Shown here: in pieces, positions 1-13,658 of the stretch | Position numbering within the stretch: position 1 is the stretch's first letter | Layout of the letters: every line of letters starts with the position of its first letter | Origin: Streptomyces lincolnensis | GTDB lineage: Bacteria; Actinomycetota; Actinomycetes; Streptomycetales; Streptomycetaceae | DNA length: 64,000 nucleotides | Reading direction: 5' to 3' | Assembly: GCF_001685355.1 (NCBI RefSeq) | Contig: NZ_CP016438.1 | Coordinates: forward strand, 4,154,001-4,218,000 | Translations under genes and position numbers: made by a program | Notes under the pieces: generated by a model | The model's database searches: none | What the model saw: the letters and a program-made list of their open reading frames with translations, nothing else | What the model was told of the DNA's origin: nothing

Positions 1-301
1 CGAGCGCGTGGTAGGTGTCCGGGGTGAGCCGGTCCGCCGTGGTGTACATGACCTCGCGCCAGGTCCAGAAGGTGCCGGAGCCGACCTGGACGGTGGAGCG
101 CAGGGCGCGGTGGAAGGCGTGGCTGTGGGCGTTCGCCAGGCCGGGGAGGGTCAGGCCGCGGAGGATCTCGGCGCCGGGGGGCGGCGTCTCCGCTCCCGTG
201 CGGACGGCAGTGATGCGGCCGTCCGCGGTCTCCACCGCGACTCCCGGCTCGACATGGGTGTCGAGCCAGGCGTGCTCCAGCCAGTAGGTCTTCGGGGTCA
301 C
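1..301 (-). CDS. hutF: Formimidoylglutamate deiminase, N-terminal part (cut by window edge)
   Basis: The first 100 codons are visible; the rest lies beyond position 1. The enzyme hydrolyses N-formimino-L-glutamate to N-formyl-L-glutamate and ammonia in histidine degradation. The translated start reads [16 protein letters not shown], followed by LPGLANAHSHAFHRALR, which holds the amidohydrolase-superfamily metal motif (HSH at about residues 59-61), then GSGTFWTWREVMY, typical of HutF. The GTG start overlaps the stop of the upstream amidohydrolase (GTGA), which indicates translational coupling in the hut operon. Imidazolonepropionase (HutI) belongs to the same superfamily, but the GTFWTWRE segment favours HutF. 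Confidence 0.85.
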   Translation of the reverse strand, partial: MTPKTYWLEHAWLDTHVEPGVAVETADGRITAVRTGAETPPPGAEILRGLTLPGLANAHSHAFHRALRSTVQVGSGTFWTWREVMYTTADRLTPDTYHAL

Positions 302-1515
302 CTGCACGCCAGTCCTTCCAGTACGTCGGCGAGGGCGAGCACCCCGGCCACGCAGTCGTCCTCGGCCGCGAACTCGGCCGGGGAGTGCGAGACGCCGGTG
401 GGGTTGCGCACGAACAGCATGGCGGTCGGGACGCTCCCGGACAGGATCCCGGCGTCGTGTCCGGCGCCGGTGCCGAGCACGGGCACCTTCAGGTCGGTGT
501 CGGTCCCGAGGATGCGGGCGAGTTCGTCGCGCAGGGCGTGGTCGAACTCGACGACGGGGGTGAAGGACTCCCGGACGATGTCGAGGTCGATCCCGTGGGC
601 GTCGGCGTAGCCGCGGGCGGCCTTCTCGATGCCGCCGAGGACGGCGTCGAGGCTCTCCTGGTCGGCGGCCCGGGAGTCGAGCCAGCCGCGTACCAGGGAG
701 GGGATGGCGTTGACGCCGTTGGGCTCGACGGCGATCTTGCCGAAGGTGGCGACGGCACCGGCGAGTTCCGCCTCCCGGCGGGCGGCGAGCACGGTCTCGG
801 CGTACGACAGCATCGGGTCGCGCCGGTCCACCAGCCGGGTGGTGCCCGCGTGGTTGGCCTCGCCGCGGAAGTCGAACCGCCAGCGCCCGTGCGGCCAGAT
901 GGCGCTGGCGATGCCGACCCGGTCGCCGGACAGGTCCAGCGCCCGCCCCTGCTCGACGTGCAGTTCGACGAAGGCGCCGATGCGGGCGAGCCGCTCGGGG
1001 TCGGGCCCAAGGGTGTCCGGGTCGTAGCCGGCGGCCCGCATGGCCTGCGGGAGGGTGGTCCCCCCGCCGTCGGTCAGCTTGTGCGCCTGCTCGACGGTGA
1101 GCTGTCCGGCGGCGAGCCGTGAGCCGACACAGGCGAGTCCGAAGCGGGCACCCTCCTCGTCGCCGAAGTTGACGATGGCGAGCGGCTTGGTGAACTCCGC
1201 TCCCCTGGCGCGCAGTTCGTCCAGGGCGGCGAAGGAGGACACGACCCCGAGGGGCCCGTCGAAGGCCCCGCCGTCGGGCACGGAGTCGAGGTGCGACCCC
1301 GTGACGACGGCGTCCCCGGCTGCGGGATCGCCGAGCCAGGCCCACTGGTTGCCGTTGCGGTCCACCTCGTGGGTGAGCCCGCGGGTCTCGGCCTGCTCCT
1401 TGAACCAGGCCCGGCATTCGAGGTCGGCGCCGGTCCAGGCGTAGCGGCGGTAGCCGCCGGAGGTGGAGCTGCGGCCCAGCGGCAGCAGCTCCGCCCACAT
1501 GCTGTGGAAGGTCAC
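298..1515 (-). CDS. M20 family amidohydrolase of the hut operon (allantoate amidohydrolase-like)
   Basis: A 405-residue metallopeptidase-fold amidohydrolase of the allantoate amidohydrolase / N-carbamoyl-L-amino-acid hydrolase family. The dinuclear metal ligands are present: [15 protein letters not shown] (H75, D86), [11 protein letters not shown] (E120/E121), ELHVEQG (H186) and a C-terminal GAGHDAG. The GTG start overlaps the hutU stop, and its own stop overlaps the hutF start, so it is locked between two histidine-degradation genes. Family members hydrolyse N-carbamoyl or ureido groups. From its place I infer that the substrate is N-formyl-L-glutamate (the missing HutG step) or N-carbamoyl-glutamate rather than allantoate. 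Substrate is not provable from sequence. Confidence 0.85.
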
Positions 1516-3176
1516 GCGTCGTCACCTTCACGCATCGGGACGCGCACGCCCCGCTCGTCGGCGACGGACTTGGCGATGTCGTACCCCGCGTCGACGTGGC
1601 GGATGACGCCCATGCCGGGGTCGTTGGTCAGCACCCGGCGGATCTTCTCGCCGCCCAGCTTGGTGCCGTCGGCCACCGTGACCTGTCCGGCGTGGATGGA
1701 CCGGCCCATGCCGACGCCGCCGCCGTGGTGGAGGGAGACCCAGGAGGCGCCCGAGGCCACGTTGACCATGGCGTTCAGCAGCGGCCAGTCGGCGATCGCG
1801 TCGGATCCGTCGAGCATGGCCTCGGTCTCGCGGTAGGGGGAGGCCACCGACCCGCTGTCCAGGTGGTCGCGGCCGATCGCGAGGGGGGCGGCCAGCTCGC
1901 CGGAGGCGACCATGTCGTTGAACCGCTCGCCGGCCTTGTCCCGCTCGCCGTAGCCGAGCCAGCAGATGCGGGCGGGCAGGCCCTGGAAGTGGACGCGTTC
2001 GCCGGCCATCCTGATCCAGCGGGCCAGGGACTCGTTCTCCGGGAAGAGTTCCAGGATCGCCTTGTCGGTCTTGGCGATGTCGGAGGCCTCACCGGACAGG
2101 GCGGCCCAGCGGAAGGGTCCCTTGCCCTCGCTGAACAGCGGCCGGATGTACGCGGGCACGAAGCCGGGGAAGGCGAACGCCCGCTCGTAACCGGCGAGTT
2201 GTGCCTCGCCGCGGATCGAGTTGCCGTAGTCGAAGACCTCGGCTCCGGCGTCCATGAAGCCGACCATGGCCTCCACGTGGCGTGCCATGGACTCCCGGGC
2301 GCGGTCGGTGAACCCGGCCGGGTCCTTGGCGGCCGCGTCGGCCATGTCCTCGAAGGCCACGCCCACCGGCAGGTAGGCCAGCGGGTCGTGGGCGGAGGTC
2401 TGGTCGGTCACGATGTCGATGGGGGCGCTCTCGGCGAGCATGCGCGGGAGCAGCTCGGCGGCGTTGCCGAGCAGGCCGATGGAGAGCGGACGACGGGCGT
2501 CGCGGGCCTCCACCGCCAGCTGGAGCGCGTGCTCCAGGGAGTCGGCCCGCACGTCGAGGTACCGGTGCTCGATGCGCCGCTCGATCGCGCGCGGGTCGCA
2601 GTCGATGCAGATCGCGACGCCGTCGTTCATGGTGACGGCGAGGGGCTGGGCGCCGCCCATGCCGCCGAGGCCGGCGGTGAGGGTGATCGTCCCGGCGAGA
2701 GTGCCGCCGAACTTCTTCGCGGCGACGGCGGAGAACGTCTCGTAGGTGCCCTGGAGGATGCCCTGGGTGCCGATGTAGATCCAGGAGCCGGCGGTCATCT
2801 GGCCGTACATGGTCAGGCCGAGGGCCTCCAGGCGGCGGAACTCCTCCCAGTTGGCCCAGTCGCCGACGAGGTTGGAGTTGGCGATCAGGACGCGCGGGGC
2901 CCACTCGTGGGTCTGCATGACGCCGACGGGGCGGCCGGACTGGACGAGCATGGTCTCGTCCTGCTTGAGGGTCCTCAGGGTGCGGACCATCGCGTCGAAG
3001 GAGCGCCAGTCGCGGGCCGCCTTGCCGGTGCCGCCGTAGACGACGAGCTTGTCGGGGTGTTCGGCGACCTCGGGGTCGAGGTTGTTCTGGAGCATCCGCA
3101 GGGCGGCTTCCTGCTGCCATCCCAGGGCGCTCAGTTCCGTACCGCGCGGCGCTCGGACGGGGCGGGGTCCTGACAT
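1512..3176 (-). CDS. hutU: Urocanate hydratase
   Basis: Full-length urocanase (554 residues) that converts urocanate to 4-imidazolone-5-propionate using tightly bound NAD as electrophile. Signature segments are [10 protein letters not shown] near residues 49-58, [20 protein letters not shown], and [18 protein letters not shown] carrying a Cys at residue 405 at the position of the conserved urocanase cysteine. The ATG start follows an AGGAGG Shine-Dalgarno with a 6-nt spacer. First gene of the minus-strand hut operon; its stop overlaps the next start. The upstream region, shared with a divergent decarboxylase gene, carries an inverted repeat that may be the operator. Confidence 0.97.
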
Positions 3177-3232: not shown

Positions 3233-3312
3233 GAACTAGTCAAGACGTTCACGCGTCAGCGTCGGTAGGGAACAGATGTTTCGCCGGCCGGGTGAGCGTG
3301 GAGGACGGGGAC

Positions 3313-4707
3313 ATGGTGAACGGGTACAGCGACAGCGCACAGGACCGGGACGACAGCGACGTGGAGCGGGCCGTCCGCCGGCACGGGGCGGTGCGGGCCG
3401 CGGTCGAGCAGGGCCTGCTCGGGCAGGACACCCCGATCGTCGGCCTGCTCGACGTCATCGGCATCCGGGAGTCGGCGGCGCGGCTGCGCGCGGCCTTCGA
3501 CGAGGTCACCGCGCCGGGCACGCCCGTGCTGCACGCGTTCGCGGTGAAGGCGACCCCGCTGGTGCCGGTGCTGCGGCTACTGCGGGACGAGGGGATCGGC
3601 GCGGAGGTGGCGAGTCCGGGCGAGCTGGCGCTGGCCCGGGCGGCGGGGGTGGCGCCCGGCCGGACGGTGCTGGACTCGCCCGCCAAGACGCCCGCCGAAC
3701 TGCGGGAGGCGCTGGCGCTGGGCATCGCGGTCAACGCCGACAATCCGCAGGAGCTGGACCGCATCGACGCCCTGATGCGGTCCGCGCCCAGCCGCTCGCC
3801 GCTCGGGATCCGGGTCAATCCGCAGGTCGGCGGGGGCTCCATCGAGGCGACGTCGACGGCCACGGCGACCTCGAAGTTCGGGGTGGCGCTGCGTGACGCG
3901 GGGGCGCGGGAGTGGGTGGTGCGGGCGTACGCCGACCGGCCGTGGCTGTCCCGGCTGCACGCGCACACCGGTTCGCAGGGCATCCCGCTCACCCTGCTGG
4001 CCCAGGGCGTCGCGGAGACCTACGCGCTCGCCGAGGAGATCAACCGGCGGATCGGGCGGCCCCAGATCGACACGATCGACATCGGCGGCGGGCTGCCGGT
4101 GAACTTCGCCTCGGACGCGACGGCACCGACGTACGCGGACTACGCGCGGGCGCTCAGGGAGGCGGTGCCGGGGCTGTTCGACGGGCGGTACGGGCTGGTC
4201 ACCGAGTTCGGGCGGTCGCTGCTGGCCAAGCACGGCACGGTGGTGGCCCGCGTCGAGTACGCCAAGAGCGCGGGCGGGCGGCCGGTCGCGGTGACCCACG
4301 CGGGCGTGCAGGTGGCGACCCGGACGGTGTACGCGCCGGGCGCGTGGCCGCTGAGGATCGCCGCCTACGACGGCAAGGGGCGGCCGAAGGAGGGGCCCGA
4401 GGTGATCCAGGACGTGGCCGGTCCGGCCTGCTTCGCGGGCGACCTGCTGGCCCGGGAGCGAGCGTTGCCGCTGCTCCAGCAGGGCGACTACGCGGCGGCG
4501 CTGGACACGGGGGCGTACTACTTCGCGCACCACTACGCCTACAACTCCCTGGCCCGGCCCGGGATCTACGGCTTCGCGCCGGACGGGAACGGCGGTGTCG
4601 TCTTCGCGACCGTGCGGGAGGAGCAGACGGTCCAGGAGATCGTGGCCGAATCGGGAGGGGCGCACGCCGGGGCACTCACGCCCCTTCGCGCACCCGGGCG
4701 CGACTGA
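3313..4707 (+). CDS. PLP fold-type III amino acid decarboxylase (LysA/ornithine decarboxylase-like)
   Basis: A 464-residue alanine-racemase-fold decarboxylase. Visible motifs: FAVKATP with Lys79 as the likely Schiff-base lysine; HTGSQ (PLP contact); DIGGGLPVNF (phosphate-binding glycines); ACFAGD with Cys373 at the catalytic-cysteine position of DAP and ornithine decarboxylases; and DTGAYYFAHHYAYN near the C terminus. The ATG at 3313 has GGAGG 8 nt upstream; an in-frame GTG at 3292 lacks a comparable site. The ACFAGD segment departs from the CESGD of LysA, so I doubt it is the lysine-biosynthetic enzyme. The substrate is unknown; its divergence from hutU hints at amino-acid degradation. Confidence 0.85.
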   Translation: MVNGYSDSAQDRDDSDVERAVRRHGAVRAAVEQGLLGQDTPIVGLLDVIGIRESAARLRAAFDEVTAPGTPVLHAFAVKATPLVPVLRLLRDEGIGAEVASPGELALARAAGVAPGRTVLDSPAKTPAELREALALGIAVNADNPQELDRIDALMRSAPSRSPLGIRVNPQVGGGSIEATSTATATSKFGVALRDAGAREWVVRAYADRPWLSRLHAHTGSQGIPLTLLAQGVAETYALAEEINRRIGRPQIDTIDIGGGLPVNFASDATAPTYADYARALREAVPGLFDGRYGLVTEFGRSLLAKHGTVVARVEYAKSAGGRPVAVTHAGVQVATRTVYAPGAWPLRIAAYDGKGRPKEGPEVIQDVAGPACFAGDLLARERALPLLQQGDYAAALDTGAYYFAHHYAYNSLARPGIYGFAPDGNGGVVFATVREEQTVQEIVAESGGAHAGALTPLRAPGRD

Positions 4708-7873: not shown

Positions 7874-8725
7874 TCACTCCACGAACAGCCCCCGGGCCGC
7901 CGCCCGCGCGTCGAACTCCTCAAGGCGTGCCTGTGCGTCGGGCAGGTCGTCGCACATCGCCTCCAGCAGGACCCGGCCGAGCAGCATCGGCGCGCAGGCC
8001 GTGTCGAAGGCGAGCCCGGTGCCGACGGCGGCCGGCAGCAGCAGGTCGGAGACCTTGGCGACCGGCGCGAAGGCGGAGTCGGCGACCGTGACGACCGTCA
8101 GGCCCGCCTCCTTGGCGTAGGCCAGGGTGTCCACGACCTCGCGCGGGTGCCGGGGCAGCGCGAAGCACAGCAGTGTCGAGGCGCCCGCCCGGACGGCGGC
8201 GTCGATCCGGTCGTGGATCATCGTGCCGCCCTCGTGCAGCAGCCGTACGTCGGGATGGACCTTGGCGGCGAAGTACGCGAAGCCGTACGCCTGGGAGGCC
8301 GCGGCCCGCAGTCCGAGGACGGGCAGGGGCCGCGAGGCCGCGAGCAGCCGGCCCGCCCGCTGCACGGGCCGCGGGTCGGCCAGCACCTGGGCCAGATGCC
8401 TGAGGTTCTCGATCTCCGCCTCGACGGCCTGCTGGTACTCGTTGTACGACGCCGTGGGCGCCGCCGGTTCGCCGGGCGCGACCTCGCGCAGGTGCTTGCG
8501 CAGGGCGGGGTAGCCGTCGAAGCCGAGGGCGACCGCGAAGCGGGTGACGGAGGGCTGGCTGACCCCGGCGAGTTCGGCCAGCTCGACGCTGGACAGGAAC
8601 GGCACGTCGGCGGCCCGCCGCACCATGCTGTGCGCGATGCGCCGCTGGGTGGGCGTCAGCCGGTGCCCCTCGAACAGCGCCTGCAACCGTGCGGCGGGAG
8701 TGTCCGTCACACCCATGTCGCTCAT
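7874..8725 (-). CDS. MurR/RpiR family transcriptional regulator with SIS domain
   Basis: A 283-residue regulator. The N-terminal HTH_6-type domain (about residues 10-85) includes LTPTQRRIAHSMVRRAADVP and the recognition region ELAGVSQPSVTRFAVALGF. A C-terminal SIS domain (about 130-270) follows with VLGLRAAASQAYGFAYF and AYAKEAGLTVVTVADS. RpiR proteins normally sense phosphorylated sugars, but many control other catabolic genes. The ATG overlaps the lyase stop (ATGA), so it is co-translated with the lyase and probably controls it and the divergent transporter. A GGGGGAG Shine-Dalgarno precedes the start. Confidence 0.88.
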   Translation of the reverse strand: MSDMGVTDTPAARLQALFEGHRLTPTQRRIAHSMVRRAADVPFLSSVELAELAGVSQPSVTRFAVALGFDGYPALRKHLREVAPGEPAAPTASYNEYQQAVEAEIENLRHLAQVLADPRPVQRAGRLLAASRPLPVLGLRAAASQAYGFAYFAAKVHPDVRLLHEGGTMIHDRIDAAVRAGASTLLCFALPRHPREVVDTLAYAKEAGLTVVTVADSAFAPVAKVSDLLLPAAVGTGLAFDTACAPMLLGRVLLEAMCDDLPDAQARLEEFDARAAARGLFVE

Positions 8726-10230
8726 GCCCCGCTCCCCCTCCAGATGTCCGTGAACCGGTCGAGCAGTGCGGCCGCCGTCGTCACGTCGTGCGTGAGCGGC
8801 CGGTCGGCCGGGTCCTCGTCGAGCACCGCCTCGGCGAGCTCCAGCGCGCGGCCCACCGGAAGGTCCGGGTCGGCCCGGAGGCCGCGCTGGCGCAGCGCCC
8901 GTACGGCGGCGACCAGTTCGCAGCCGACGACGAGACGGTACGCGCCGCACGCGCGCAGTGTCTGACGTGCGGCGAGCGAGGCGAAGCTGGCCTGTTCCTC
9001 GACGCCTCGGGAGAGTACAGCGTGCCCGAGCGAGGCGGGTGCCGAGAAGGCCCGCAGATCGCCGAGGGCGGCCCCGGCGGCGTACTCCAGGATCATCACG
9101 CCGGAGGAGGCGGGCTCGGCGTCGGCGAGGAAGGGCTTCAGGCGGGTGAAGGCGGGCTCGTTGAGGGTGGACAGGCGGGAGGTGGACAGCCGCGCCACCT
9201 GGGTCAGGGCCAGCCTGAAGTGGTCCAGGGACAGGGCGAGTTGGGCCTGGTAGAAGCCGCCGTGGTGGTAGGCGGCCATGTCCTCGGGCGAGATGAGCGG
9301 GTTCTCGGCGGCGGCGTTGATCTCGACGGCGAGGACCTCCTCCAGGGCGTCGGCCGCGTCCTGCGCCGGGCCGTGGATCTGGGGCAGGCAGCGGAAGCCG
9401 TAGGGGTCCTGGATCCGACCCAGTGGCGGGGTGGGCCGGTCCTCGGCGCCGACCAGCTCCCGCATCCGGCGGGCCACTTCGCCGGATCCGCGGTGCGGTC
9501 GGGCGGCGTGCACGGGAGCGGCGTACGCCTCGTGCGAGCCGTCGACGGCGAGCAGGGAGAGGGCGGCGACGACCTGGGTGGCCTCCACCAGAGCGCGCAG
9601 TTCGTGCAGGGCGAGGGCGGCCTGGCCGAGGGTGAGGGCGTTGCTGCTGATGAAGGCGAGGGCGTCGTTGTTGTCGACGGGCTGGGCCTCGGGGGCTCCC
9701 GGCCCTCGCCAGGGGTGCTCCCCCGCGAGCGCCAGCCCCACCTGTGCCAGTGCCGCGATGTCGCCGGTGCCCACCGACCCGAACTCGTTGACGACCGGGT
9801 AGGCGCCGTTCTCCAGCGCCTCGCACAGCGCCGTCACCACCGTCGGCCGGAGCCCCGCCCCGCCCGCGAGCAGCTGGTTGGCCCGCACGGCGAGCATCGC
9901 GCGCACCTGCCGGGCGGGCAGTTCCTCGCCGATGGCGCCGGCATGACTGCGCAGCAGCCGCAGCCCGTGCTCGGCGGCCGCCTCGGTGGGCACGTCCTCG
10001 TTCCGGTTGGCGCCGACGCCGGTGGAACGGCCGTAGACGCGTCCGGTCGCGGCGATCTGCCGGGCGGCGTCCCAGGACTGGGTCACCCGCTTCATCCCGT
10101 CGGTCGCGGGCACCGGCCGCGCGGTCCCGTCGGCGAGGCGGACGACGTCCTCGACGCCCAGCCCGATCCCGTCGAGGACCACCAGGCCGGTGTGCACAGG
10201 ACTCGGCGTGTCCACGATCCGAGACGACAT
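8722..10230 (-). CDS. Aromatic amino acid lyase-family protein lacking the MIO triad
   Basis: A 502-residue homologue of histidine/phenylalanine ammonia-lyases. Conserved family features: YGRSTGVG with Tyr66, LRSHAGAIGE, QDPYGFRCLPQIHG (Tyr277, Arg280), AAENPLIS and VEEQASFASLAARQTL. The cofactor site is abnormal: canonical GSVGASGDLAPLAH is here GSVGTGDIAALAQ, one residue shorter with Thr-Gly in place of Ala-Ser-Gly, so MIO cannot form in the usual way. The LALxNGT segment is replaced by LAFISSNA. The ATG at 10230 follows GAGGGGAG at about 10 nt. Coupled to an RpiR regulator, divergent from a quaternary-amine importer. I infer a MIO-independent beta-elimination, for example of a trimethylammonium group (ergothionase-like), not ordinary HutH activity. 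Confidence 0.85.
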   Translation of the reverse strand: MSSRIVDTPSPVHTGLVVLDGIGLGVEDVVRLADGTARPVPATDGMKRVTQSWDAARQIAATGRVYGRSTGVGANRNEDVPTEAAAEHGLRLLRSHAGAIGEELPARQVRAMLAVRANQLLAGGAGLRPTVVTALCEALENGAYPVVNEFGSVGTGDIAALAQVGLALAGEHPWRGPGAPEAQPVDNNDALAFISSNALTLGQAALALHELRALVEATQVVAALSLLAVDGSHEAYAAPVHAARPHRGSGEVARRMRELVGAEDRPTPPLGRIQDPYGFRCLPQIHGPAQDAADALEEVLAVEINAAAENPLISPEDMAAYHHGGFYQAQLALSLDHFRLALTQVARLSTSRLSTLNEPAFTRLKPFLADAEPASSGVMILEYAAGAALGDLRAFSAPASLGHAVLSRGVEEQASFASLAARQTLRACGAYRLVVGCELVAAVRALRQRGLRADPDLPVGRALELAEAVLDEDPADRPLTHDVTTAAALLDRFTDIWRGSGA

Positions 10231-10293
10231 CAAGCCCAAACTCCCCTCAATCGGGACAACCGGTCTTGCTCTCCGGTCATTCGTTACCTCGGA

Positions 10294-10315
10294 TTAACGT
10301 CGAGGCGTTGACAAC
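10294..10315. promoter_or_regulatory. Candidate operator/promoter between lyase and ABC importer
   Basis: TTAACG-TCGAGG-CGTTGA is an 18-bp dyad with one mismatch (10294-10311). It overlaps GTTGACAAC (10307-10315), itself a 9-bp dyad that contains a TTGACA-like -35 reading toward the transporter. This is the most structured part of the 141-bp divergent region and a plausible target for the RpiR regulator. Binding is inferred. Confidence 0.35.
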
Positions 10316-10371
10316 CTATTCACACACCGAGAACTCTGCATGACGTTATACAGCCGGGCAAGGGACATCTC

Positions 10372-11415
10372 ATGATCCAGTTCGACGCGGTCCACAAACG
10401 CTTCCCCAACGGCACGACAGCCGTCCACGACCTTTCCCTGCGCATGCCGGAAGGCGGCGTGACCGTCCTCGTCGGATCCTCCGGTTGCGGCAAGACGACC
10501 ACCCTCAGGATGATCAACCGGATGGTCGAGCCGACCTCCGGCACCATCAGGGTCGGCGGCAAGGACGTCACCGAGCAGGACGCCGCGGAACTGCGCCGTT
10601 CCATCGGATACGTCATCCAGCAGGCGGGCCTCTTCCCGCACCGCACGGTCCTCGACAACATCGCCACCGTGCCGCTGCTCCTCGGCCACGGCCGCCGCAG
10701 GGCACGGGCCCGGGCGGCGGAGCTGCTGGAGACCGTCGGCCTCACCGCCGAGGCCGGCAAGCGGTACCCGCACCAGCTCTCCGGCGGCCAGCAGCAGCGC
10801 GTCGGCGTCGCCCGCGCACTCGCCGCCGACCCGCCCGTCCTGCTCATGGACGAACCGTTCGGCGCGGTCGACCCGGTCGTGCGCACCCAGCTCCAGGACG
10901 AACTGCTGCGACTCCAGAAGGAGTTGAACAAGACCATCGTCTTCGTCACGCACGACATCGACGAGGCGGTCCGGCTCGGCGACCGCATCGCGATCTTCCG
11001 CACCGGCGGCCACCTCGTCCAGTGCGCCCCGCCCACCGAGCTGCTGGCCCGGCCGGCCGACGACTTCGTGGCCGACTTCCTCGGCGCCGAGCGCGGCCTG
11101 AAGCTGCTCTCGCTGAAGACCCTCGCCGAGGTCCCGCAGGGCCCGGCCCCGGAAGGCGGCGCCTGGACCCTCGTACTCGACTCGCGGCGCAGGCCCCTGC
11201 ACTGGGCGCCGAAGAACACGCCGGACGCCGAGATCCCCGTACGACCGCTCAAGGACGACGACTCCCTGCTCGCGGCCCTCGACGAGTCCGTCGCCTCCCC
11301 CACCGGTCTGGTCGCCCGGGTCGACGCCGACGGCGTTCTCACCGGCGTCTCCTCGCGCGACGACATCCACGAGCACGCGGGCCGGGCGCACACGGAAGCC
11401 CGGGTGGCCGCATGA
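10372..11415 (+). CDS. Quaternary-amine ABC importer, ATP-binding protein (OpuC/ProV type)
   Basis: A 347-residue ATPase. Walker A VGSSGCGKTT (about 39-48), Q-loop region YVIQQAGLFPHRTV, signature LSGGQQQRVGVARAL, Walker B LLMDEPFGAVDP, then a C-terminal extension (about residues 240-340) resembling the CBS-type regulatory domain of glycine-betaine transporters. The osmoprotectant family signature RRSIGYVIQQAGLFPH is clear. Its stop overlaps the first permease start (ATGA). It powers uptake of a quaternary amine; the divergent lyase suggests a catabolic rather than osmotic role. Confidence 0.93.
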   Translation: MIQFDAVHKRFPNGTTAVHDLSLRMPEGGVTVLVGSSGCGKTTTLRMINRMVEPTSGTIRVGGKDVTEQDAAELRRSIGYVIQQAGLFPHRTVLDNIATVPLLLGHGRRRARARAAELLETVGLTAEAGKRYPHQLSGGQQQRVGVARALAADPPVLLMDEPFGAVDPVVRTQLQDELLRLQKELNKTIVFVTHDIDEAVRLGDRIAIFRTGGHLVQCAPPTELLARPADDFVADFLGAERGLKLLSLKTLAEVPQGPAPEGGAWTLVLDSRRRPLHWAPKNTPDAEIPVRPLKDDDSLLAALDESVASPTGLVARVDADGVLTGVSSRDDIHEHAGRAHTEARVAA

Positions 11416-12053
11416 CCATCGACTGGTCGTGGATATCCGGCCACACCGACGACCTCACCACCCTCACGCTCTCCCACCTCCAGGCCGCCCTGACCGCGGT
11501 CCTCCTCGGCCTGATGATCTCGCTGCCGCTCGCGGTGCTCGCCCACCGGGTCCGGCCCCTGCGCGGGTTCCTGCTCGGCCTGTCGAACGTCCTGTTCACG
11601 ATCCCGTCGATCGCGGTCTTCGTGCTCCTGCTGCCGGTCAGCGGACTCACCCGCACCACGACCGTGATCGGCCTGACGATCTACACCCTGGTCGTCCTGC
11701 TCCGGAACACCGTCGAGGGCCTCGACTCGGTCCCCGCGCGGACCAAGGAGGCGGCCAGGGCGATGGGCACCCGCCCCCTGCGCACCCTGCTCACCGTCGA
11801 GTTCCCGCTCGCGCTCCCCGTGATCATGGCGGGCGTCCGCATCGCGACGGTCATGTCGATCTCCCTCGTCTCCGTCGCCACCTACATCGGCGACGGCGGC
11901 CTCGGCCAGCTCTTCACCGACGGCTTCCAGCGCAACTTCCCCACCCCCGTGATCGTCGGCGTGGTCCTCACGCTGCTGCTCGCCGTGGTGGCGGACGCGC
12001 TGCTCGTCGCCCTCCAGTACGTCCTGACGCCGTGGAAGCGGAGGCGAGCCTGA
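11412..12053 (+). CDS. Quaternary-amine ABC importer, permease 1
   Basis: A 213-residue BPD_transp_1 permease with about five or six transmembrane helices (LTLSHLQAALTAVLLGLMIS, FLLGLSNVLFTIPSIAVFVL, VIGLTIYTLVVLLRNT, PVIVGVVLTLLLAVVADALL). The EAA-like coupling loop reads TKEAARAMGTRPLRTLLTVE. The pattern IPSIAVFVLLLPVSGL is typical of OpuCB/YehW-type permeases. The start overlaps the ATPase stop and the next permease follows after one base, so expression is tightly coordinated. Confidence 0.92.
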   Translation: MTIDWSWISGHTDDLTTLTLSHLQAALTAVLLGLMISLPLAVLAHRVRPLRGFLLGLSNVLFTIPSIAVFVLLLPVSGLTRTTTVIGLTIYTLVVLLRNTVEGLDSVPARTKEAARAMGTRPLRTLLTVEFPLALPVIMAGVRIATVMSISLVSVATYIGDGGLGQLFTDGFQRNFPTPVIVGVVLTLLLAVVADALLVALQYVLTPWKRRRA

Positions 12054-12054
12054 G

Positions 12055-12717
12055 ATGTACGAGCTCCTCAAGAACCTCGGCATCTGGCTGACCAGCGGCT
12101 CCGAGTGGGCCGGATCCGACGGCATCGCCCACCGCCTCGCCGAGCACCTCCAGTACTCGCTGCTCGCCACCCTCATCGCGACCGCGATCGGCCTCCCCCT
12201 CGGCCTGCTGATCGGCCACACCGGCAGGGGCGCCTTCCTCGCGATCAACCTGGCGTCCTTCGGCCGCGCCCTGCCGACCGTCGGCCTCGTCGTGCTGGTC
12301 TTCCTGGCCGGCGGACTGTCCATGCTCCCGGTCTACGTCGCCCTCGTCGCCCTCGCGGTCCCCGCGATCGTCACCAACACCTACGCCGGGATGACGGCCG
12401 TGGACCCGGACGTCCGCGACGCCGCCCGGGGCCAGGGCATGCGCGGCCACCAGGTCCTGTTCCAGGTCGAGCTGCCCCTCGCCCTCCCCCTGATCATGAC
12501 GGGTCTGCGCCTGGCGCTGATCCAGGTCGTCGCCACGGCGACCATCGCGGCCTACGTCTCCTTCGGCGGCCTCGGCCGCTACGTCTTCGACGGCCTCGCC
12601 CAGCGCGATCTCGTCCAGGTGCTCGGCGGCGCGGTGCTGGTGGCCGCGGTCGCCGTCGTCCTCGACCTGGGCCTCTCCGGCCTCCAGCGCTTCCTCTTCC
12701 GCCACCGCACCGCCTAG
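12055..12717 (+). CDS. Quaternary-amine ABC importer, permease 2
   Basis: A 220-residue paralogue of permease 1 with about six transmembrane helices (LQYSLLATLIATAIGLPLGL, FGRALPTVGLVVLVFLAGG, VYVALVALAVPAIVTNTYAG, VLGGAVLVAAVAVVLDLGL). The coupling loop is DAARGQGMRGHQVLFQVELP. Together with permease 1 it forms the heterodimeric channel. It starts one base after the upstream stop and ends 11 bp before the binding-protein gene. Confidence 0.92.
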   Translation: MYELLKNLGIWLTSGSEWAGSDGIAHRLAEHLQYSLLATLIATAIGLPLGLLIGHTGRGAFLAINLASFGRALPTVGLVVLVFLAGGLSMLPVYVALVALAVPAIVTNTYAGMTAVDPDVRDAARGQGMRGHQVLFQVELPLALPLIMTGLRLALIQVVATATIAAYVSFGGLGRYVFDGLAQRDLVQVLGGAVLVAAVAVVLDLGLSGLQRFLFRHRTA

Positions 12718-12728
12718 GGAACCCGCAC

Positions 12729-13658
12729 ATGAACCGACGCACTCTGCTCGGTGGCCTCTTCGCCGTGGCCTCCGTCCCCGCCCTCTCCGCCTGCGCCGGC
12801 GGCATCACCTCCCTCGAAGGCCAGGGATCCTCGTCCGGAGGCGGCGGCTCCAGCAAGGACGGAGTCACCATCGGCACCGCCAACTTCACCGAGAACCAGG
12901 TACTGGGCTATCTCTACGCCGCCGTACTGGAGAAGGCCGGCGTGAAGACCACCGTCCGCCCCAACCTCGGCACCCGCGAGATCCTCATCCCCGCTCTCAA
13001 GGGCGGCGACATCGACCTCCTCCCCGAGTACCAGGGCGCCCTGCTGCACTACCTGGACCCCAAGGCGACGGCGACCGAGGAGGGCGAGATGCAGAACGCC
13101 CTCGCCGTCGCGCTCCCGGCCGGCCTCCAGATCCTGCCGTACGGCATGGCCGAGGACTCGGACGCCTTCGTCGTCACCAAGGAGACGGCCGCCCGCTACG
13201 GTCTGACCTCCCTCGCCGACCTGAAGAAGCAGAACGGCAAGCTGGTCATCGGCGCCGCGCCCGAGGTGAAGAAGCGTCAGGTCGGCGTGGTCGGCCTCAA
13301 GGACGTCTACGGCGTGGAGTTCAAGGAGTTCAAGTCCCTCGACTCCTCGGGCCCGCTGGTCAAGGGCGCCCTGAAGAAGGGCGACGTCGACGTGGCGAAC
13401 CTCTTCACCACCGACACCGACATCCAGGCCAACGACTGGGTCGTCCTGACCGACCCGAAGAACCTCATCCCCGGCCAGCACGTCGTCCCCCTCATAGCCG
13501 ACCGCAAGGCCGACTCCACCGTCCGCAAGGCCCTCGCCCGCCTCGGCAACGTCCTCACCACGGCCCAGCTCACCGAGCTCAACCGCCAGGTCGACAAGGA
13601 CAAGAAGGACCCGGAGGACGTGGCGAACGCGTACGCGAAACAACACGGCCTGGCGTGA
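12729..13658 (+). CDS. Quaternary-amine-binding lipoprotein of the ABC importer (OpuAC/OsmF type)
   Basis: A 309-residue solute-binding lipoprotein. Residues 1-22 form a lipoprotein signal peptide ending in LSAC, followed by a Gly/Ser-rich linker and a type II periplasmic fold. Family hallmarks: IGTANFTENQVLGYLYAAVL, DLLPEYQGALLHYLDP (usual PEYTGT) and ANLFTTDTDIQANDWVVLTD. OpuC-type proteins bind betaines, choline, carnitine or ergothioneine through an aromatic cage. I cannot fix the ligand from sequence; the neighbouring lyase makes a histidine betaine the most interesting candidate. Confidence 0.92.
   Translation: MNRRTLLGGLFAVASVPALSACAGGITSLEGQGSSSGGGGSSKDGVTIGTANFTENQVLGYLYAAVLEKAGVKTTVRPNLGTREILIPALKGGDIDLLPEYQGALLHYLDPKATATEEGEMQNALAVALPAGLQILPYGMAEDSDAFVVTKETAARYGLTSLADLKKQNGKLVIGAAPEVKKRQVGVVGLKDVYGVEFKEFKSLDSSGPLVKGALKKGDVDVANLFTTDTDIQANDWVVLTDPKNLIPGQHVVPLIADRKADSTVRKALARLGNVLTTAQLTELNRQVDKDKKDPEDVANAYAKQHGLA

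Follow-up and report, generated by a model that had tools for sequence, protein, structure and literature searches.

The lyase gene and its cofactor loop

The window analysed here is a 64,000-nucleotide stretch of the Streptomyces lincolnensis genome (positions 4,154,001-4,218,000 of a single 10.3 Mb contig). Its minus strand carries a gene (8722..10230) for a 502-residue lyase of Pfam family PF00221, read from an ATG at 10230 to a stop at 8722, and a gene for an RpiR-type regulator (7874..8725; HTH_6, 42.5 bits, cut-off 28.3) whose start codon lies in a 4-base overlap with the lyase stop. Across a 141-base spacer (10231..10371), a divergent importer operon occupies the plus strand, and genes of histidine breakdown (hut) lie on the far side of the regulator. 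From sequence and gene order, the lyase is predicted to be a hercynine trimethylamine-lyase that lacks the 4-methylideneimidazole-5-one (MIO) cofactor.

The lyase scores 376 bits against PF00221 (cut-off 27.3), and its AlphaFold model confirmed the fold with a mean predicted local distance difference test (pLDDT) score of 87.1. The best NCBIfam model is hutH (TIGR01225), at 281.6 bits against a cut-off of 539.15. Alignment revealed that the cofactor loop reads GSVGTGDIA and is one residue too short to hold the MIO triad; the codons of GSVGTGD, residues 151-157, lie at 9760..9780 (minus strand, counted from the ATG at 10230). The NGT motif is replaced by Ser195-Ser196-Asn197, and Tyr66, Tyr277 and Arg280 are retained. 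An earlier sequence-only reading of this DNA had reported the lost triad, the changed NGT motif, the kept residues and the overlapping RpiR gene, and all four were confirmed.

For the family alignment, 5 of 193 matches with 420 residues or fewer were dropped, and 14 of 188 were removed as duplicates. Of 159 distinct family rows, 157 have a loop that is one residue shorter than that of HutH and lacks the Ala/Cys-Ser-Gly triad; the shortened position holds Thr in 155 of them and Ile in the other 2. The exceptions, L051 and L059, are apparently frame-misread in their N-terminal part. The agreement of 157 rows rules out chance or a sequencing error as the origin of the loop. Ser-Ser stands for the NG of NGT in every row, and Arg280, Phe326, Glu382 and Glu411 are likewise invariant, while Gln274 is found in 157 rows, His96 in 156 and Tyr66 in 155. 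The misses at Tyr66 and His96 were traced to a few paralogue rows with misread N-termini.

In a characterised histidine ammonia-lyase (HAL), Tyr52, His82, Asn194 and Glu411 are described as essential (PMC11432326). Mapped by motif and by alignment to HutH rows, the PMC11432326 protein itself lying outside the alignment, Tyr52, His82 and Glu411 are matched by Tyr66, His96 and Glu411 of the lyase, and Asn194 is lost. Because these three essential residues are conserved, a histidine-like substrate is likely, and the family appears adapted to act on it without MIO. It could be argued from the missing cofactor that lyase activity has been lost and that the family now serves in regulation or ligand binding, the more so as an RpiR gene accompanies 34 of the 80 named loci (the best of 561 confirmed, ranked against locus L080, and no random sample). 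However, the substrate-side catalytic residues are kept in nearly all 159 rows, a degree of conservation seldom seen in an enzyme that has lost its activity, and we regard this explanation as very improbable.

The nearest named orthologs all come from Streptomyces, the lyase reaching 93% identity at the Streptomyces canus locus L169. Three PF00221 proteins were found in the S. lincolnensis genome: the window lyase, one at 6.33 Mb and one at 10.2 Mb. HutH in its normal form is encoded at 6.33 Mb (695 bits, cut-off 539), with the loop GSLGCSGDLA and the NGT motif. The protein at 10.2 Mb (genome G000; loci L002 and L185) also keeps the MIO triad, as GSLGASGD, together with NGT; Gln replaces HutH Glu411, so that this protein is probably aromatic rather than histidine-specific. 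At locus L081, an additional PF00221-like frame (10915-12186, minus strand) lies 2 kb from the MIO-less lyase; it has a very long branch, the loop AVGAAGE and an Arg replacing His96.

Relation to HutH and to the ergothionases

The tree placed the actinobacterial MIO-less lyases in a clade apart from HutH and from the ergothionases. The family and the ergothionases form two distinct clades, with supports of 100/99 and 100/100, and the branching order of the clades is unsettled. This phylogeny had been put forward as a check in the sequence-only reading, and no clustering with active MIO enzymes appeared in it. With HutH the lyase shares the fold, Tyr66, His96, Gln274, Arg280, Phe326 and Glu411, and its operon company. 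Nevertheless, membership in HutH was rejected, as the lyase lacks the MIO triad, has lost the asparagine of NGT, stays below the hutH cut-off and belongs to a separate clade. An ordinary MIO-dependent histidine or aromatic ammonia-lyase, to which the top hutH score would point, therefore has virtually no chance of being the right description, given also the normal HutH elsewhere in the genome.

With the ergothionases (Treponema denticola, 6s7j; Burkholderia Ert clusters), the family shares the PF00221 fold, the MIO-free loop shorter by one residue, SxNA in place of NGT and the His/Arg/Glu of the substrate site. The T. denticola loop aligns with that of the lyase without a gap (SSIGEGDIT to GSVGTGDIA). 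By fold, the lyase is no closer to ergothionase than to HAL: the top Foldseek match is Trypanosoma cruzi HAL, and VIA ties both. A difference was found at the column of the lysine in the T. denticola motif ILEY/IQK, a residue which we take to be catalytic. Lysine occupies it in 4 of 5 ergothionase-type rows, whereas the MIO-less family has Tyr in 154 of 159 rows (column 383), with Glu382 throughout.

The partner genes also differ. Ergothionases are accompanied by thiourocanate hydratase, desulfurase and ErtD, and the lyase family by canonical hut genes. The ergothionase cluster on a Burkholderia arboris plasmid (L179), for example, combines an MIO-less lyase that has the lysine with thiourocanate hydratase (1050 bits, cut-off 930), thiohydantoin desulfurase and ErtD. 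In the S. lincolnensis genome no thiourocanate hydratase scored above the cut-off (641.9 bits against 930) and thiohydantoin desulfurase had no match. The lyase was found in 60 of 121 sampled Streptomyces genomes (E<=1e-60), about half, and thiourocanate hydratase above the cut-off in 0 of the 121. Because of the lysine column, the separate clade and the missing partner genes, we rejected membership in the ergothionases and do not file the lyase under that name. It probably works like one. Ergothionases have been named from few genera and divergent homologs may be missed, according to a 2026 paper (PMC13405746).

The importer and the hut genes

The importer consists of an ATPase (10372..11415; ABC_tran, best NCBIfam model proV with 309 bits, below the cut-off of 327), two permeases (11412..12053 and 12055..12717; both BPD_transp_1) and a binding protein (12729..13658; OpuAC, PF04069, 185 bits), all on the plus strand. 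It shares with ProX/OpuC systems the OpuAC domain, the order ATPase-permease-permease-binding protein, and Phe and Tyr at positions 244 and 293 (EgtU numbering). The AlphaFold model of the binding protein confirmed the fold (mean pLDDT 85.9), and the protein is closest to EgtU by both sequence and fold. EgtU Glu375 and Arg379, which contact imidazole and carboxylate, are kept in all 24 rows that cover them, a feature possibly general to the wider family. The spacer between lyase and importer contains an imperfect 18-base palindrome, CTGCATGACGTTATACAG (10336..10353), which is well conserved across 44 aligned spacers and may be an operator.

About 5.5 kb from the lyase, the minus strand encodes canonical urocanate hydratase HutU (1512..3176; TIGR01228, 894 bits) and, adjoining it, an M20-type amidohydrolase (298..1515; PRK09290.1-4, 659 bits, cut-off 372) which likely performs the last hut step. 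The window edge truncates a hutF-like gene, of which the 5' part (1..301, minus strand) was recognised by sequence reading and by the place of hutF beside hutU and amidohydrolase in relatives; hutI lies just beyond the window. This hutU encodes the sole urocanase-family protein of the genome, and its match to the thiourocanate hydratase model stays at 642 bits (cut-off 930). HutI and EgtD were found above their cut-offs, the EgtD gene at a distance of 4.7 Mb. Between hutU and the lyase (3286-4707) lies a gene for a diaminopimelate/ornithine-type pyridoxal phosphate-dependent decarboxylase, below the LysA cut-off, which is also found there in other Streptomyces.

Most Streptomyces orthologs retain the arrangement RpiR-lyase-(divergent)-importer. 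Among 31 Streptomyces copies for which a distance was taken, a subset of those with lyase and hutU on one contig, 20 lie within 22 kb of hutU. Binding protein and lyase are adjacent in a second group of Streptomyces paralogues, with about 50-60% identity; at L034 and L053 this pair stands about 4.6-5.8 kb away from the permeases, and the intervening genes read like a sensor kinase-GTPase conservon. Outside Streptomyces the link to histidine breakdown is tighter, and several distant families of actinobacteria carry the lyase within a hut operon or next to one. Locus L080 contains, on one strand, RpiR, symporter, hutH, ATPase, two permeases, binding protein, lyase, amidohydrolase, hutU and hutF. 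The lyase is divergent from importer-hutH-hutU-amidohydrolase-hutF at L126, L136, L139 and L145, the order importer-hutU-amidohydrolase-hutF is found at L084 and in Dactylosporangium (L143), an Arthrobacter plasmid (L181) has importer-hutU-lyase on a single strand, and in a Thermoleophilaceae locus (L097) hutU-hutH adjoins the lyase. Among the 80 named loci, a related binding protein is encoded at 40, and hutU, hutH or hutF is present at 33. A LacI regulator, an amidohydrolase and a small cupin-like gene occur together near the lyase at L084, L087, L124, L131, L139, L145 and L180 and in Streptomyces at L044, L045, L048, L049 and L129; the amidohydrolase and cupin-like gene of L139 gave no NCBIfam match. 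The gene lists of two Lentzea and Saccharothrix loci held no informative enzymes beyond those named here.

The urocanases neighbouring the lyase in the window and at L080, L081, L084, L139 and L181 score 875-935 bits with the hutU model and 626-681 bits with the thiourocanate model, so that all those tested in actinobacteria are canonical. In a sample of 396 genomes from the phylum, HutU was present in 12 of 13 lyase genomes and in 123 of 383 others (Fisher p 1.6e-5); the lyase was called there at E<=1e-70, with no more than three candidates scored in each genome, so that weak members may escape, and the genomes are not independent, the p values ignoring kinship. Ten lyase genomes from outside Streptomyces, five of them from this sample, include nine with HutU. 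Finally, egtD lies within 10 kb of the lyase at 11 of the 80 named loci (7 Thermomonosporaceae, 1 Streptosporangiaceae, 1 Thermoleophilaceae and 2 unclassified actinomycete bins). At L139 the genes beyond the lyase encode EgtD (378 bits, cut-off 291), EgtB (448, cut-off 360) and EgtA (437, cut-off 371), with EgtC below its cut-off on the piece searched (187 against 219). EgtD is the enzyme that makes hercynine. This context suggests that the lyase product enters the canonical hut pathway, and the idea of the sequence-only reading that the hut genes supply the downstream chemistry has become stronger through the recurrence in distant actinobacteria and the egt genes beside some of the lyases.

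Hercynine as the predicted substrate

The antioxidant ergothioneine is made from hercynine, which is also its desulfurised oxidation product. On the basis of sequence and gene order, we propose that the lyase probably strips trimethylamine from hercynine and passes the rest to ordinary histidine breakdown. More exactly, we consider the chances slightly better than even that it is an MIO-free beta-elimination lyase for N-alpha-trimethylated histidine, most likely hercynine, feeding the hut pathway. In an active site assembled from several subunits, Tyr66 would serve as the base at the beta-carbon. The imidazole would be bound and polarised by His96 and Glu411 together with Glu382, and the carboxylate held in place by Arg280. 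MIO would be unneeded because the trimethylammonium group, being quaternary, can leave without help from an electrophilic cofactor. The products would be trimethylamine and urocanate, and canonical HutU followed by HutI, HutF and the amidohydrolase would convert urocanate to glutamate. The EgtU-like importer on the opposite strand may take up this histidine compound or one related to it, with RpiR as the possible regulator of both the lyase and the importer units. We infer these roles, and the substrate, the importer ligand and the regulation alike, from the comparisons given above.

Hercynine is preferred to ergothioneine because it would yield urocanate, for which urocanases are present, whereas ergothioneine would yield thiourocanate, for which no hydratase was found in the genomes surveyed. 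Ergothioneine is thus the less likely substrate, and this part of the sequence-only reading was not supported: S. lincolnensis has neither thiourocanate hydratase above the cut-off nor thiohydantoin desulfurase, and the lyase lacks the lysine and belongs to its own clade. An ergothionase of a divergent clade, cleaving imported ergothioneine to thiourocanate and trimethylamine, would nonetheless explain the ergothionase-like loop and SxNA pattern, the egt genes close by in some loci, and an importer nearest to EgtU. Against it stands, besides the points just named, the loss of the EgtU determinants Gly244 and Phe293 (PMC9732360), replaced by Phe and Tyr in all 26 binding-protein rows, along with that of the aromatic cage. 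We regard it as distinctly unlikely.

Several results weigh against the hercynine assignment itself. The first is the pocket of the binding protein, in which the cage of EgtUC (7txl), Asn339/Tyr341/Tyr419/Tyr443, has become Asp/Asp/Phe/Gln, with Asp143, Asp145 and Gln250 in its place. Further changes from EgtU are Thr275 to Arg and Lys242 to Ala. Of the three residues that stand in for the cage, the two aspartates occur in 25 and 23 of 26 binding proteins and the arginine in 25; Asp stands at 341 in 25 of 26 rows and Tyr at 443 in 1 of 24. Compared with ProX/OpuC, the Tyr cage and the ligand lysine are gone in 25 of 26 rows. The binding protein of the deep-branching unit L080 retains Lys242, Asn339, Tyr341 and Tyr443. 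The pocket comparison thus goes against reading the likeness to EgtU as support for a betaine ligand. The sequence-only description of a complete OpuC-type importer holds for family and gene order, while its "quaternary-amine" specificity is doubtful. These substitutions, and the presence of the importer in hut operons that also contain hutH, would be explained if the importer served histidine or another histidine compound with a free amine and the lyase acted on a different, activated, non-betaine histidine derivative. However, we know of no natural activated free-amine histidine substrate, and MIO loss is otherwise tied to trimethylamine elimination, as in ergothionase. We regard this explanation as unlikely.

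The hercynine assignment is also challenged by gene distribution. Of the 31 measured Streptomyces copies, 11 lie more than 2 Mb from hutU, and these include whole lyase-importer units in G065, G052 and G066. Outside Streptomyces the phylum contrast is weak (HutU in 4 of 5 lyase genomes and 119 of 379 others, p 0.04), and G246 has the lyase without a HutU match. Among the 80 named loci, 27, some on short contigs, have no importer, hut or egtD gene in the DNA covered, and 21 of these are among the 25 Pseudonocardiaceae loci. It is possible that the proximity of hut and egt genes stems from old synteny. On a Paracoccus saliphilus plasmid, an ergothionase-type lyase with the lysine (L182:7911-9599) directly follows a canonical hutU, so that neighbours alone cannot fix the substrate; that locus has a full hutF-I-H-G-U cluster and TRAP transporter genes nearby. 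The Paracoccus case and the empty Pseudonocardiaceae loci slightly lowered our confidence in hercynine.

In summary, the observation of the sequence-only reading was confirmed and its interpretation, a module for a trimethylammonium amino acid, was partly supported: an MIO-less ergothionase-like lyase beside an importer of EgtU/OpuC type, probably serving a histidine-derived trimethylammonium compound and with hut enzymes downstream, stands, and the ergothioneine or histidine betaine substrate has been sharpened to hercynine, feeding the ordinary hut pathway. Our literature search gave no paper on hercynine breakdown, and nothing for "hercynine", "urocanate" and "trimethylamine" together; most subscription papers were outside its reach, so that an earlier description is possible. 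In the papers found that pair hercynine with urocanic acid, it is ergothionase that turns ergothioneine into thiol-urocanic acid.

The wider claim, that these lyases form a widespread new enzyme class, hercynine trimethylamine-lyase, which returns hercynine to glutamate by way of the ordinary hut pathway, is held tentatively, at a little under an even chance. Automatic naming would hide such a family, because its best-scoring models are those of histidine ammonia-lyase. If the claim is true, an importer of the EgtU fold would bind its ligand without an aromatic cage, and a second, separate MIO-free clade could help to explain how enzymes with the HAL fold manage without MIO. The egt and hut metabolisms would be joined, and soil actinomycetes that make ergothioneine would also consume hercynine and release trimethylamine, a new source of this compound in soil.

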